Shown: positions 2,756 to 62,277 of the stretch, in pieces
Layout: each line of letters starts with the position of its first letter
Numbering within the stretch: position 1 is the first letter of the stretch
DNA from: Microbacterium resistens NBRC 103078
Lineage (GTDB): Bacteria > Actinomycetota > Actinomycetes > Actinomycetales > Microbacteriaceae
Assembly (NCBI RefSeq): GCF_001552355.1
Contig: NZ_BCRA01000008.1
Location: 1 to 64,000 of the forward strand
Length of the DNA stretch: 64,000 nucleotides
Direction of reading: 5' to 3'
Translations under genes and position numbers: made by a program
Notes under the pieces: generated by a model
What the model saw: the letters and a program-made list of their open reading frames with translations, nothing else
Databases searched by the model: none
What the model was told of the DNA's origin: nothing

Positions 2756-3905
2756 TGTTCTCGATCTCCGCTCCGCGCATCATCGCCCCGGTCTCCGCAG
2801 CGATCTCGCGGGACTCCAGCCAGCCGTCCGGAAGAGCCGTCCGCTTCGGCGACCCCGCACGGCCGCGCTGCCCCTCGGCGGCAGCGCCCGGATAGGGCGC
2901 GTCCTCCAGCGTGCCGAGAAGGTCGTCGATCTCCGCGAGCGTGGAGACCCGGGCGAGCGCGGCCCGCAGATCCCCGCCGACCGGGTAGCCCTTGAAGTAC
3001 CACGCGACATGCTTGCGGATGTCCTTGCACCCGCGGTCCTCGTCCTCGAAGAAGTCGACGAGCAGCTCGGCGTGCCTCCGGAACGCCTCGGACACGAAAC
3101 GGAGGGTCGCGTCGACCGGCGGACCCGCGGAGCCCTCGGGACCGAGAGCCGCCGCGAGCTCGCCGAACAGCCACGGCCGCCCGAGGCAGCCCCGGCCCAC
3201 GACGACGCCGTCGCAACCGGTCTCGGCCATCATCCGGACCGCGTCGTCGGCGGACCAGATGTCGCCGTTGCCGAGGACCGGGATCGAGGTCACCGCCTCC
3301 TTGAGCTCTCCGATGGCGCTCCAGTCCGCGTGGCCCGAGTAGTACTCGGAGGCGGTGCGCGCGTGCAGCGCCACCGCGGCCGCCCCGGCGTCCTCCGCCG
3401 CGCGCCCCGCGTCGAGGAAGGTCAGGTGGTCGCGGTCGATCCCCTTGCGCATCTTCACCGTCAGCGGCACGGAGCCCGCGGCCTTGACCGCCCGCTGCAC
3501 GATGTCCGCGAACAGCGACCGCTTCCACGGCAGCGCCGCTCCCCCGCCCTTGCGCGTGACCTTCGGCACCGGGCATCCGAAGTTCAGGTCGATGTGATCG
3601 GCGCGGTCCTCGGCGACGAGGATGGTCACGGCCTCGGCGATCGTCGCAGGATCGACGCCGTACAGCTGCACCGACCGAGGAGTCTCGCTCTCGTGATGCT
3701 GGATGAGACGCATCGTGATGGCGTTGCGCTCGACCAGCGCGCGTGAGGTGATCATCTCGCTGACGTACAGTCCCGCACCGTACTCCCGGCACAGGCGCCG
3801 GAAGGCCGTGTTCGTGATCCCCGCCATCGGGGCGAGGACGACGGGCGCCTCGATCCGGATCGGACCGATCTGCAGCGGGCGGGCGGGAGCGGGAGCAAGA
3901 GTCAT
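2745..3905 (-). CDS. dusB: tRNA-dihydrouridine synthase (DusB type)
   Basis: FMN-dependent reduction of uridine to dihydrouridine in the tRNA D-loop. The 386-residue protein begins with the TIM-barrel signature VLAPMAGITNTAFRRLCREYG (about residues 23-43), and has the catalytic cysteine Cys111 in LNFGCPVPKVTRKGGGAALP, followed by the FMN phosphate-binding segments VLGNGDIWSADDA and GCDGVVVGRGCLG. I place the start at the ATG at 3905, because the conserved core begins about 20 codons later and the open frame upstream has no homologous character; a GGAGG lies in front. First gene of the dusB-dgt-dnaG operon. Confidence 0.94.
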   Translation of the reverse strand: MTLAPAPARPLQIGPIRIEAPVVLAPMAGITNTAFRRLCREYGAGLYVSEMITSRALVERNAITMRLIQHHESETPRSVQLYGVDPATIAEAVTILVAEDRADHIDLNFGCPVPKVTRKGGGAALPWKRSLFADIVQRAVKAAGSVPLTVKMRKGIDRDHLTFLDAGRAAEDAGAAAVALHARTASEYYSGHADWSAIGELKEAVTSIPVLGNGDIWSADDAVRMMAETGCDGVVVGRGCLGRPWLFGELAAALGPEGSAGPPVDATLRFVSEAFRRHAELLVDFFEDEDRGCKDIRKHVAWYFKGYPVGGDLRAALARVSTLAEIDDLLGTLEDAPYPGAAAEGQRGRAGSPKRTALPDGWLESREIAAETGAMMRGAEIENSGG

Positions 3906-4014
3906 GGCCCCTCCATTCTCCCAGATGAGCGACCCCGGTGGCGGCGAGCGGCCGCCGCCGGGGAACCGCGCAGGATCGGGCCTCGAACACCGCCGCGCGC
4001 GTAGGCTGAGGAGC

Positions 4015-4509
4015 ATGACGAGTGCCGATGTCCGCAGCATCCCGTTCACCGACGCCTCGGGCGCCCAGACGACCCTGCAGGATCTCGACGCCGATGTCGT
4101 CCTGGTCGTGAACGTCGCGTCGAAATGCGGTCTCACTCCTCAGTACGCGCAGCTCGAAGAGCTGCAGCGCACATATGCCGACCGCGGCTTCACGGTGCTC
4201 GGCTTCCCCTGCAACCAGTTCTTCGGCCAGGAGCCCGGCTCGATGGACCAGATCCTGGAGTTCTGCTCCACGACGTACGGCGTCACGTTCCCCGTCAACG
4301 ACAAGGTCAAGGTGAACGGCCGCAACGCCGCCGAGCTCTACAAGGCGCTCACCCGGACTCCCGACGCGAACGGCAAGGCCGGTCGCGTGGAGTGGAACTT
4401 CGAGAAGTTCCTCGTCGGCGCGGACGGCTCGATCCAGCGCTTCCGGCCGAAGCAGCGACCGGATGACCCGGCAATCGTGTCGGCGATCGAGGCCGCGCTC
4501 ACGCGCTGA
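4015..4509 (+). CDS. glutathione peroxidase family thiol peroxidase
   Basis: Gpx-family peroxidase that reduces hydroperoxides. The 164-residue protein contains the active-site cysteine Cys38 in VNVASKCGLTPQY, the glutamine of the catalytic tetrad in GFPCNQFFGQEPG (Gln68) and the tryptophan in VEWNFEKFLV (Trp127). It has cysteine, not selenocysteine, and Cys66 and Cys84 are further cysteines that could resolve the sulfenic acid; most bacterial members of this family use thioredoxin and not glutathione, and actinobacteria normally lack glutathione, so thioredoxin or mycothiol is the likelier reductant (inference). A TAGGCT element ends 7 bases before the ATG, but GAGGAG within those 7 bases could also act as ribosome-binding site. 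Confidence 0.92.
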   Translation: MTSADVRSIPFTDASGAQTTLQDLDADVVLVVNVASKCGLTPQYAQLEELQRTYADRGFTVLGFPCNQFFGQEPGSMDQILEFCSTTYGVTFPVNDKVKVNGRNAAELYKALTRTPDANGKAGRVEWNFEKFLVGADGSIQRFRPKQRPDDPAIVSAIEAALTR

Positions 4510-4722
4510 CCCCGTCCTCTCGGCCCCGCGAGGGGCCCGCCACGGGCAAGCCGAACGCGCGGGCGTCCGTCGTGCGGTTCCAGCCTGAGGGGACGTTCAC
4601 GATCGTCCCCTTCAACGACACGCCCGCGCAGGAGGCCGTCTGGCCGGCGGGGCGGATCCTGCGCAGGCGTGAGCCCGGAGATCCGCGCCCACGCCGGCGT
4701 CATCCGGCGTCGGGACCGCGCG
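4510..4722. other. gene-free stretch with a possible coding remnant
   Basis: About 210 bases between gpx and the DsbA-like gene. On the plus strand one frame from about 4536 to 4680 stays open with strong G/C third positions and reads GTFTIVPFNDTPAQEAVWPA near its middle, which looks protein-like, yet it has no convincing start, no ribosome-binding site and runs into low-quality arginine/proline sequence. On the minus strand an overlapping frame is also open. I do not recognise either. It could be the tail of a decayed gene, or chance openness in high-GC DNA. Confidence 0.3.
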
Positions 4723-5448
4723 TCAGGCCGTCTCCGGCTCGCGCGCTCCGTCCGCAGTCGCTCCGTCCGCACGCTGAGCCCACAGGTCGCGGAGCAGGTT
4801 CTCGAACGCGGCAGGCGGCTGCGCCCCGCTGACGCCGTACTTGCCGTCGATGACGAAGAACGGCACGCCCTGGATGCCGTAGGCCCTCGCCTGCTCCTGA
4901 TCCTGCCGCACGTCCGCGAGGTGACGCTCGGACTCCAGAGCGAGGCGGGTCTCGTCGGCGTCCAACCCGACCTCGGCGGCGAGGTCGACCAGATCGTCGA
5001 TCCGCCCGACGTGGCGCCCCTCGGTGAAGTACGCCGCCATGAGCCGCTCCTCCATCTCGTGCTGGCGGCCGTGCGCCTTCGCGTGGTGGAGCAGCTCGTG
5101 CGCCTTCACCGTGTTCGTGTGCTGGAGCAGGTCGAAGCAGTACTCCAGACCCGCTTCACGCGCGACCCCGGTCACGCGCTCGAGCATCTGCTGGACCTGT
5201 TCGCGCGGCATCCCCTTGTGACCGGAGAGGAAGTCGATCTCGTCGCCGTCGAAGTCCACCGGCGTGTCCGGCGAGAGCTCGAACGAGTGGAACGTGATCT
5301 CCACCTCGGGGCTCTGGTCCCCCTCCGCGTCGCGGAGCGCCGCGAGGCCCTTCTCCAGGTTGCGCTTGCCGATGTAGCACCAGGGGCAGGCGATGTCGGA
5401 CCAGATGTCGATCGAGATGGGGTTGCTCACATCTTCATGCAACCGCAT
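4723..5448 (-). CDS. DsbA-family oxidoreductase, FrnE-like
   Basis: Cytoplasmic thioredoxin-fold protein of the FrnE / 2-hydroxychromene-2-carboxylate isomerase-like branch of the DsbA family. The 241-residue chain has no signal peptide; the CPWC active site follows the first strand (Cys21 and Cys24, context IWSDIACPWCYIGKRNLEKG), and the cis-proline loop is GIQGVPFFVIDGKYGVSGAQP near residue 200. These proteins act as disulfide isomerases or oxidoreductases, and some members are linked to polyketide tailoring, which nothing here suggests. The ATG at 5448 is used; a GTG six codons further in (SNPISIDI) is an equally possible start. Confidence 0.88.
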   Translation of the reverse strand: MRLHEDVSNPISIDIWSDIACPWCYIGKRNLEKGLAALRDAEGDQSPEVEITFHSFELSPDTPVDFDGDEIDFLSGHKGMPREQVQQMLERVTGVAREAGLEYCFDLLQHTNTVKAHELLHHAKAHGRQHEMEERLMAAYFTEGRHVGRIDDLVDLAAEVGLDADETRLALESERHLADVRQDQEQARAYGIQGVPFFVIDGKYGVSGAQPPAAFENLLRDLWAQRADGATADGAREPETA

Positions 5449-60687: not shown

Positions 60688-60800
60688 CGCCGCAGTCTGG
60701 CACGCCCCACCGACACTCGCCGCACCCGCACTCGCGCCCTGTCGGCCGTCGCCTCACGCCGCCGGGCACCGCGTCGGCGCAATCCGCCGCCCGGGAGCGG

Positions 60801-60975
60801 TAACGTGGTCCGCGGCGGACGTGAGGAGTGACGACCCTCGCGCCGGATCCCCGGCACCCGTCCCCCGCGCGTCCCGGCGTACCGACGAGAGGCCGGCGCT
60901 CGCCGGCGAAGGTGTGGTGGCACCGCGATCTGGCCCCCGCCCGCACCTCCAGGGCTTCCCGCATCTGGAGGAAGA
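60801..60975 (+). promoter_or_regulatory. translational T-box riboswitch (aspartate type)
   Basis: The 5' leader has a TAACGT -10 (60801-60806), a short stem I (GTGAGG, 60821-60826, with CCTCGC, 60836-60841) whose loop reads AGTGACGAC and holds the Asp codon GAC as specifier, and the T-box core GGTGGCACCGCG (60916-60927). The UGGN tRNA-binding bulge is UGGC, the pairing partner of the G73 discriminator of tRNA-Asp. AGGTGT (60910-60915) can pair with GCACCT (60943-60948); alternatively CCTCCAG (60946-60952) pairs perfectly with CTGGAGG (60965-60971), the ribosome-binding site five bases before the ATG. Uncharged tRNA would free the site and turn on translation. Confidence 0.88.
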
Positions 60976-62277
60976 ATGTCGATACCGCCCGTCCCCCGCG
61001 TCCTCGCCGCGCACCTGCCCGAAGCCGCCCCCGGCACGACGGTGACCCTGCGGGGCCACGTCCATCGCCGCCGAGTCCTGTTCGCCGTGACCTTCCTCGT
61101 CGTGCGCGACCGCTCGGGAACGGCGCAGGTGGTCCTGCGCGCCGACGAGGCGGGCCGCACCGACGTCCCGCCGGAGGAGACGCCGATCCGCGTCACCGGC
61201 GTCGCGACACCGAACCCGAACGCCCCGGGCGGCGTCGAGGTGACCGCGCCCCGCATCGACCTGCTCTCCGACCCGGCCCGCACTCCCCCGTTCGAGCTGT
61301 GGCGCCCGTCCCTCGGCGCGGGCCTCGCCGCGATCCTCGACCACGCCCCGGTCTCGCTGAGGCACCGGAGCCGCCGCGCCGCCTGGGAGATCGCCGCGGC
61401 CAGTCTCCGGGGCTTCCGGGACACCCTCGACCGACAGGGCTTCCGAGAGGTGCACACGCCGAAGCTCGTCGGGTCCGCCACCGAGTCGGGGGCGGACGTG
61501 TTTCCCGTGGACTACTTCGGCCGGCCGGCGTTCCTGGCTCAGAGTCCTCAGTTCTTCAAGCAGCAGCTCGTGGGCGTGTTCGAGCGGGTGTACGAGGTGG
61601 GCCCGGTGTTCCGCGCCGAGCCCCACGACACGGTCCGCCATCTCGCCGAGTACCGGTCCCTCGACGCGGAGCTCGGGTTCATCGACGACCATCGCGACGT
61701 CTTGCGCTGCCTGCGCGACGTGCTCGACGGGATGGTCACGGAGATCCGCCGGTCCGCCGACGAGGCGGTGGCGGTGCTCTCCCCCGACCTGCCCGTCGTC
61801 CCGGACGAGATCCCGACGATCCACTTCCGGGACGCGCTCCGGCTCGTCGGCGCGCCGGCCGACGAGCCCGACCTCGCGCCCGAGCACGAACGCGCGCTCG
61901 GCGCCTGGGCCCGCTCGGAGCACGGCAGCGACTTCCTCGGGGTCGAGGGCTATCCGATGGCGAAACGGCCCTTCTACACCCATCCCCAGCCGGACGACCC
62001 GCGCTGGAGCAACAGCTTCGACCTGCTCTTCCGAGGCATCGAGCTCGTGACGGGCGGGCAGCGCCGGCACCGGTACGACGACTGCGTCAGCGCCCTTCGT
62101 GCCAAGGGCGAACGTCCCGAGGACCACGCCGAGTATCTCTCGGCCTTCGCGCACGGGATGCCGCCCCACGGCGGGTTCGCGATCGGGCTCGAACGCTGGG
62201 TCGCACGCGTGATCGGAGCCGCCAACGTCCGCGAGGTCACCCTGTACCCGCGGGACCTGCACCGCCTGACGCCTTAG
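60976..62277 (+). CDS. aspartyl-tRNA synthetase, archaeal/eukaryal type
   Basis: A 433-residue class IIb synthetase. It lacks the GAD insertion of the standard bacterial AspRS (about 590 residues) and so is of the archaeal/eukaryal type. The OB fold comes first (VTLRGHVHRRRVLFAVTFLV, about residues 23-42), then the catalytic core: FREVHTPKLVGSATESGADVF (about 155-175), motif 2 FRAEPHDTVRHLAEYRSLDAE (about 213-233) and motif 3 GGFAIGLERWVARVI (about 395-410). The LDAE reading, instead of EPE, marks it as AspRS and not AsnRS. It may charge tRNA-Asp only, or both tRNA-Asp and tRNA-Asn. Probably a transferred extra copy; the usual aspS should be elsewhere. Confidence 0.9.
   Translation: MSIPPVPRVLAAHLPEAAPGTTVTLRGHVHRRRVLFAVTFLVVRDRSGTAQVVLRADEAGRTDVPPEETPIRVTGVATPNPNAPGGVEVTAPRIDLLSDPARTPPFELWRPSLGAGLAAILDHAPVSLRHRSRRAAWEIAAASLRGFRDTLDRQGFREVHTPKLVGSATESGADVFPVDYFGRPAFLAQSPQFFKQQLVGVFERVYEVGPVFRAEPHDTVRHLAEYRSLDAELGFIDDHRDVLRCLRDVLDGMVTEIRRSADEAVAVLSPDLPVVPDEIPTIHFRDALRLVGAPADEPDLAPEHERALGAWARSEHGSDFLGVEGYPMAKRPFYTHPQPDDPRWSNSFDLLFRGIELVTGGQRRHRYDDCVSALRAKGERPEDHAEYLSAFAHGMPPHGGFAIGLERWVARVIGAANVREVTLYPRDLHRLTP

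Follow-up and report, generated by a model that had tools for sequence, protein, structure and literature searches.

A T-box-type leader with an aspartate specifier upstream of a second, archaeal-type aspartyl-tRNA synthetase gene in Microbacterium resistens

Duplicate aminoacyl-tRNA synthetases under T-box control are exemplified by thrZ and tyrZ of Bacillus subtilis. The aspartyl-tRNA synthetase (AspRS) can also be present in two forms, as in Thermus thermophilus, where AspRS2 coexists with a bacterial AspRS; we know of no T-box for that AspRS2. In actinobacteria, T-boxes have been reported for ileS only, according to an excerpt of Seliverstov 2005 (PMC1262725), and actinobacterial his T-boxes are mentioned in an excerpt of another paper (PMC9413887). 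TBDB, as described in part of its publication (PMC7778990), scanned reference genomes of actinobacteria with a class II model. No aspartate T-box of actinobacteria was found in the literature searched, which comprised excerpts of PMC1262725, PMC2494555, PMC7583486, PMC10482949, PMC10651847, PMC9437257, PMC12452182 and PMC7778990, though the TBDB tables may already list such leaders; the priority of the Asp specificity in actinobacteria is uncertain.

Here we analyze the leader of a second AspRS gene in Microbacterium resistens NBRC 103078, located in a window of 64,000 nt (the whole stretch of DNA analyzed, positions 1 to 64,000 of contig NZ_BCRA01000008.1). We conclude that this T-box-type leader very probably monitors tRNA-Asp charging and regulates the translation of a backup AspRS. 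The core of the reading put forward in an earlier note on this DNA, namely a T-box that has an Asp specifier and a translational platform and precedes an archaeal-type AspRS gene of an actinobacterium, stands on conservation, covariation and linkage to AspRS.

The aspS2 gene and the layout of its leader

The product of the downstream gene, denoted aspS2, scores 511 bits against NCBIfam NF003483 (cut-off 353), and the structure best matching it is that of T. thermophilus AspRS2 (1n9w, E 2e-108, residues 14-433), which bears out the archaeal-type AspRS named in the earlier note. The M. resistens genome also encodes a bacterial AspRS (667 bits), and a search of the same genome returned no AsnRS over the cut-off. 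In the 5' to 3' direction, the leader consists of an outer helix, P0, around the specifier hairpin and a variable hairpin, a pseudoknot of two helices, stem III, the T-box core and a helix hiding the Shine-Dalgarno sequence. The features are as follows:

60801-60975, plus strand: leader, 5' of aspS2 (start codon at 60976)
60801-60806, plus strand: TAACGT, probable promoter -10 box, following the TANNNT pattern before stem I
60817-60863, plus strand: outer helix P0, GGACG (60817-60821) with CGTCC (60859-60863), enclosing stem I and the variable hairpin
60823-60839, plus strand: stem I hairpin, GAGG/CCTC, with a 9-nt specifier loop (covariation)
60830-60832, plus strand: specifier GAC (Asp), followed by a purine at 60833 (conservation)
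60866-60887, plus strand: pseudoknot at the place of stem IIA/B, CGC (60866-60868) with GCG (60877-60879) and CGT (60870-60872) with ACG (60885-60887)
60892-60907, plus strand: stem III, GCCGGC/GCCGGC (covariation)
60910-60948, plus strand: anti-sequestrator, helix A1 (60910-60917/60941-60948) and helix A2 (60925-60927/60938-60940)
60916-60927, plus strand: core GGTGGCACCGCG, read in the sequence
60918-60924, plus strand: bulge UGGCACC, of which UGGC (60918-60921) is complementary to NCCA ends with G73
60932-60956, plus strand: helix X, GGCCC (60932-60936, loop of helix A2) with GGGCT (60952-60956) (covariation across groups)
60946-60971, plus strand: sequestrator, CCTCCAG (60946-60952) with CTGGAGG (60965-60971), holding the Shine-Dalgarno GGAGG
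60976-62277, plus strand: aspS2, archaeal-type, probably non-discriminating aspartyl-tRNA synthetase of 433 aa (NCBIfam NF003483)

The core, the UGGC bulge and the GAC triplet in a short stem I loop, all described in the earlier note, could be located in the sequence. The stem I hairpin reads GAGG-AGTGACGAC-CCTC and reaches up to 7 pairs if extended; in the M. resistens leader, P0 overlaps and competes with this possible extension. The variable hairpin is formed by GCCGG (60842-60846) and CCGGC (60851-60855). Further upstream, a TANNNT sequence is found 19-22 nt 5' of stem I in 34 of the 41 group-1 leaders taken into the count (5.2 expected by shuffling), and a scan with the sigma-70 consensus gave 0 matches. 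Because TAACGT fits this conserved pattern, it is probably the promoter -10 box, and the transcript would start near 60812 rather than at 60801.

Conservation, covariation and covariance models

Two simple measures were discarded as evidence. The bare 11-mer GTGGNACCGCG occurs at the chance level, with 28 sites in the 3.98-Mb M. resistens genome versus 40 for a reversed-pattern control, and minimum free energy was not used, the folding energy of the leader being unremarkable (z -1.05) and that of the anti-sequestrator stretch alone giving z -0.89. Conservation of the core across relatives is more telling. Among the best 80 of 501 relatives, the relaxed core GGTGGNAC[CA]G[CG]G was found at most 400 nt upstream of 79 genes and the exact core upstream of 60, versus 5 occurrences of the relaxed core in 685 length-matched control stretches taken from these loci. 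The lone exception among the 80, AspRS2 of Nocardioides litoris (L045), has hardly any leader and no T-box (2976-3001).

Covariation was assessed in alignment A1, which comprises 44 of the 47 group-1 leaders (L006, L023 and L048 were left out). Over the 28 pairs counted, 97.8% of the cells are paired, with changes on both sides in 11 pairs and 61 cells (5.1 and 17.2, respectively, upon shuffling; 0/500), and sliding the partners abolishes pairing. Both-sided changes were detected in 3 of the 4 pairs of stem I, in which 98.3% of the cells are paired, and in 5 of the 6 aligned pairs of stem III. The two pseudoknot helices are paired in 100% and 97.7% of the cells, and at one pair 3 sequences have changes on both sides. 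For P0, the best-stem score was 13.14, compared to 12.07 (sd 0.33) with shuffled partners (0/200), a modest effect obtained with 44 leaders scored and 3 not matched. The anti-sequestrator was examined in 58 leaders of all groups (alignment A2, 58 of 71 stretches; L022, L040 and L069 were not cut), in which both-sided changes affect 4 pairs and 30 cells (shuffled mean 8.4; 0/500) and include G-C to A-U, U-A to C-G, U-A to A-U and C-G to G-C replacements. Helices A1 and A2 covary around the UGGNACC bulge that lies between them, as in other T-boxes.

The region between stem I and stem III is not uniform across the leaders. In Terrabacter, Intrasporangium, Humibacillus and their kin (L043, L050-L052, L054, L057, L058, L061, L065 and L072), it spans about 15 bases; stem II and the pseudoknot are seemingly absent from these leaders, which perhaps represent a minimal T-box.

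Of the joint refuting outcome named in the earlier note, the half concerning covariance models went against the reading, as no Rfam match was obtained, but the other half did not, the specifier and the sequestrator pairs being conserved. A model built from relatives singles out the leader in the genome. No Rfam family was detected in the M. resistens leader at the gathering threshold, and RF00230, the classical T-box family, was absent even at E 10 from the region searched (60700-61100), where just a weak match to a CRISPR repeat model was recorded, on the opposite strand. The same Rfam search also misses the ileS T-box of M. resistens itself (L081, contig 38), which is located at nt 1326-1348 and contains GGTGGTACCGCG and an AGTAGAA stretch. 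The whole of the RF00230 model aligns with three relatives of the leader, L047 (E 8e-10, 56.5 bits), L137 (3e-9, 54.2 bits) and L066 (3e-6, 42.7 bits), all under the gathering score of 93. Through these relatives, a chain of homologues connects the leader to RF00230, and the leader is thus of the T-box kind. Model R2 holds 51 leaders, with all Microbacterium rows excluded (alignment A3, that is, the 58 leaders of alignment A2 without the M. resistens leader, L001, L005, L007, L008, L014 and L018). In the 3.98-Mb genome, R2 gave the M. resistens leader 71.8 bits (E 3.8e-13) and the next match 27.4 bits, and six leaders located before bacterial aspS and outside the model scored 70-74.5 bits. The ileS T-box of M. 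resistens was not strongly matched by R2, which is thus specific to this type of leader. Taken together, the conservation (79/80 versus 5/685), the covariation and the single strong model match place the leader beyond chance.

A search of 396 genomes of the phylum with model R1 yielded 3 strong and 4 weak matches, numbers that are no measure of frequency, as the first pass scored 13 candidates per genome. The weak matches L138-L141 (31-34 bits) come from distant lineages of the phylum and have UGGU cores before other genes.

Linkage to two types of AspRS and the specificity of the leader

A search for the pattern AAGGNGNGGTGGCACNGCGA in 396 genomes of the order retrieved 24 sites in 23 genomes, and every one of them precedes a gene for AspRS: 18 precede AspRS2 (M. 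resistens included) and 6 precede bacterial aspS, the product of which shares only 31-35% identity with AspRS2 over the region matched. The 6 genomes with the T-box before bacterial aspS encode no AspRS2 over the cut-off, whereas the other 15 genomes tested do. Because one and the same RNA precedes two different types of AspRS, Asp is strongly supported as the signal; by the standards of a computational analysis, this double linkage backs the specificity unusually well.

The distribution of the T-box is related to the AspRS complement of the genomes. AspRS2 over the cut-off was identified in 36 of 394 genomes of the class. A T-box lies upstream of AspRS2 in 22 of these 36 (21 of 30 fetched loci plus G400, from a further stretch), and all 22 also encode a bacterial AspRS over the cut-off. 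In the remaining 14, judged on fetched loci in 8 cases and on stretches of some 570 nt in the other 6, no intact T-box core was found upstream of AspRS2, and none of the 14 has a bacterial AspRS over the cut-off. Thus, the T-box accompanies AspRS2 as a second enzyme (22/22 with both types versus 0/14 with AspRS2 alone). The genomes that by cut-off carry AspRS2 without bacterial AspRS (G343, G679, G747, G597, G686, G623, G733, G647, G553, G268, G694, G571, G562 and G225) belong to the same family as M. resistens, and in these fourteen AspRS2 has apparently replaced the housekeeping AspRS. In the AspRS2 tree, genes with and without the T-box are not cleanly separated: L160, which has the T-box, falls among T-box-free Microbacteriaceae, so the T-box is not confined to one AspRS2 clade (the tree marks L171 as T-box-free; its T-box lies in L202).

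Two genomes have unusual AspRS2 loci. G845 carries two AspRS2 copies (contig 1, 42595 and 404169), each with its own T-box, and one of the matches contains TAG. In G400 (contig 895; L171 and L202), AspRS2 is matched at 303-500 and again, about 3.2 kb further on, at 3699-4739; the gene looks interrupted, with the T-box preceding the first part. A gene-neighbourhood test was discarded, as neighbours are common only within genera and several are antisense reading frames.

Positions 60830-60832 read GAC in 43 of the 44 rows of alignment A1; the 44th row, L030, is misaligned, and its raw sequence holds TGAC in the same kind of hairpin. Position 60833 is a purine in all 44 rows (29 G, 15 A), and the bases 3' of it vary. 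A context pattern that does not require GAC fits 30 of 34 group-2 leaders, all 30 of which read GAAGAC; the specifier counts thus derive from an aligned column and from a pattern free of the triplet itself. Accordingly, the stem I specifier matches the gene downstream. The bulge is equally constant: among 114 distinct leaders, 111 have UGGC and 3 have UGGU, followed by ACC in 95 and ACA in 19. In M. resistens, the discriminator is G73 in tRNA-Asp and tRNA-Asn and A73 in tRNA-Ile, and the ileS T-box of the same genome has UGGU, matching the latter. The fit between the UGGC bulge and G73 of tRNA-Asp that had been noticed earlier is therefore confirmed, the bulge base being complementary to the cognate discriminator of M. 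resistens. From the discriminators, the two bulges and the conserved GAC, it follows that the bulge tells Asp and Asn from Ile and the specifier tells Asp from Asn. The leader is read as specific for tRNA-Asp, binding of which is predicted.

It is unlikely, in our estimate, that the T-box instead senses tRNA-Asn, or tRNA-Asp together with tRNA-Asn, and so monitors the Asp-tRNA(Asn)/transamidation pathway. In favour of this are the probably non-discriminating nature of AspRS2, the lack of an AsnRS over the cut-off in the genome, the G73 that tRNA-Asn carries as well, and its anticodon GUU, which can pair with GAC through one G-U wobble, as the base-pairing rules allow. Against this stands the triplet, which is GAC rather than AAC in 43 of 44 group-1 rows and in all 30 group-2 leaders that fit the context pattern (4 of 34 do not fit), as well as the presence of the same RNA before bacterial aspS, though that enzyme may charge tRNA-Asn too. 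Thus, because the conserved triplet is GAC, not AAC, tRNA-Asn is a less likely ligand than tRNA-Asp, though G73 is common to both.

The expression platform and comparison with known T-boxes

The helix between CCTCCAG and CTGGAGG over the ribosome-binding site, proposed in the earlier note, is present, and both it and the specifier are conserved in related genomes. In alignment A1, each pair of the sequestrator is formed in 41 to 43 of the 44 rows; the helix is nearly invariant, with one compensatory change, and its covariation is weak (1 pair; 28/500 shuffles). GGAG lies within the 3' strand of the sequestrator in 77 of 83 leaders. This count does not include the 22 leaders that have an AAGGG platform or the 6 that precede bacterial aspS; the sequestrator pattern was found in neither group. 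The claim of two mutually exclusive helices holds in part: both helices can form, but they overlap by just three bases, 60946-60948. The folds computed with forced pairs overlap at 60946-60947, the eighth pair, A60910-U60948, adds one base, and a sequestrator remnant of 4-5 bp can persist in the ON fold. Without tRNA, the computed energies are -41.5 kcal/mol for the sequestrator and -34.6 kcal/mol for the anti-sequestrator, 6.9 in favour of the former. An alternative OFF fold is thus obtained by computation, with three bases common to both folds.

Action of the RNA mainly on transcription, by Rho-dependent or other termination, or on mRNA stability, rather than on translation initiation, has little probability. 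It would suit the six leaders before bacterial aspS, in which some 100-160 nt separate the T-box from the matched protein region and no sequestrator of the M. resistens kind was found, but no terminator-like site was found in the M. resistens leader, and the helix hiding the Shine-Dalgarno sequence is kept in 77 of 83 comparable leaders. A structured leader that binds a protein, for instance AspRS itself in autoregulation, or that has lost its response to tRNA and persists as a relic would be in line with the compactness of the group-1 aptamers but is highly improbable, given that the specifier, the next purine and UGGC are fixed while the surrounding stems change by compensation.

The sequestrator could act in concert with helix X, an element that is new here. 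Across 111 leaders, the mean score of helix X is 13.0, compared to 10.4 (sd 0.19) with the loop shuffled (0/200), and complementarity is kept despite changed letters (CCCC/GGGG, TCCCTT/AAGGGA, CCCG/CGGG and GACCC/GGGTT). Helix X crosses the anti-sequestrator, and because only about four linker bases would span ten pairs, the two are likely to compete. Together with the sequestrator, helix X (60932-60935/60953-60956) can build an H-type pseudoknot whose 5'-to-3' strands directly adjoin each other, and it could make the OFF state a pseudoknot. In L177 and L178, helix X is kept although the Shine-Dalgarno sequence lies further off, and its role may thus be broader than hiding that sequence.

In the preferred reading, a translational switch governed by tRNA-Asp, plentiful charged tRNA-Asp would leave the leader in the OFF fold, with CCUCCAG paired to the Shine-Dalgarno strand CUGGAGG and helix X probably completing an H-type pseudoknot. 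Once uncharged tRNA-Asp builds up, the anticodon GUC would pair with GAC in the loop of stem I, and the 3' end of the tRNA (G73-CCA) would pair with UGGC. This pairing is expected to stabilise the anti-sequestrator, which would reclaim 60946-60948 and, by its topology, exclude helix X, so that the ribosome-binding site would open and AspRS2 would be made.

A bolder extension of this model is possible but falls short of probable. The leader might represent a new T-box architecture with an H-type pseudoknot as the OFF state, driving an emergency AspRS and lost once AspRS2 is the only AspRS. Its aptamer would start with the transcript itself, as a three-way junction of P0, the specifier hairpin and the variable hairpin, and would have no S-turn stem II; AspRS2 would be induced upon failure of the housekeeping bacterial AspRS, for example under antibiotics that mimic aspartyl-adenylate. 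That the backup enzyme answers AspRS inhibitors is a guess, for which resistant second synthetases, as described in part of PMC9437257, offer an analogy.

The leader widens the tRNA-sensing leaders of actinobacteria from Ile (ileS) to Asp, and it suggests a testable reason for the second AspRS of many actinobacteria, namely a reserve enzyme whose synthesis is limited to times of uncharged tRNA-Asp. If true, the compact aptamer and the pseudoknotted OFF state would illustrate how few features suffice for a T-box to recognise a tRNA. Reporters for inhibitors of AspRS could also be built on the leader.

Among known systems, the closest are the ileS T-boxes of actinobacteria such as Nocardia farcinica and Mycobacterium tuberculosis (class III, as described in part of PMC10482949). 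In common with the leader, these have a short stem I whose apical loop carries the specifier, the purine 3' of it, a UGGN bulge in the anti-sequestrator and sequestration of the Shine-Dalgarno sequence, in the same phylum. The leader analyzed here differs in its Asp rather than Ile specifier, in C rather than U in the bulge, and in the possession of P0 and helix X. It shares with class III a pseudoknot in place of stem IIA/B, the homology resting on position only, whereas the apical loop, a penta- or hexanucleotide in class III according to the same excerpt, has 9 nt in M. resistens. The AGUA string of the S-turn is absent from all 61 group-A and all 22 group-B leaders but also from 30 of 32 group-C leaders, and is thus a weak marker; it is present in the ileS leader of M. 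resistens. A strict kink-turn rule for stem I of group B was abandoned, as just 3 of 22 leaders follow it.

With the classical T-box, RF00230, the leader has in common the core, the bulge, stem III and the logic of the specifier, though it does not itself match that model. The closest solved relative of its gene product is T. thermophilus AspRS2 (PDB 1n9w), which likewise coexists with a bacterial AspRS. Finally, Firmicutes place one of two synthetase copies under a T-box, including aspS of C. acetobutylicum, as described in part of PMC2494555. The logic, a duplicate enzyme under the control of its own tRNA, is the same; in Firmicutes the control is transcriptional and stem I is long, whereas here the duplicate is of the archaeal type and the platform is translational.
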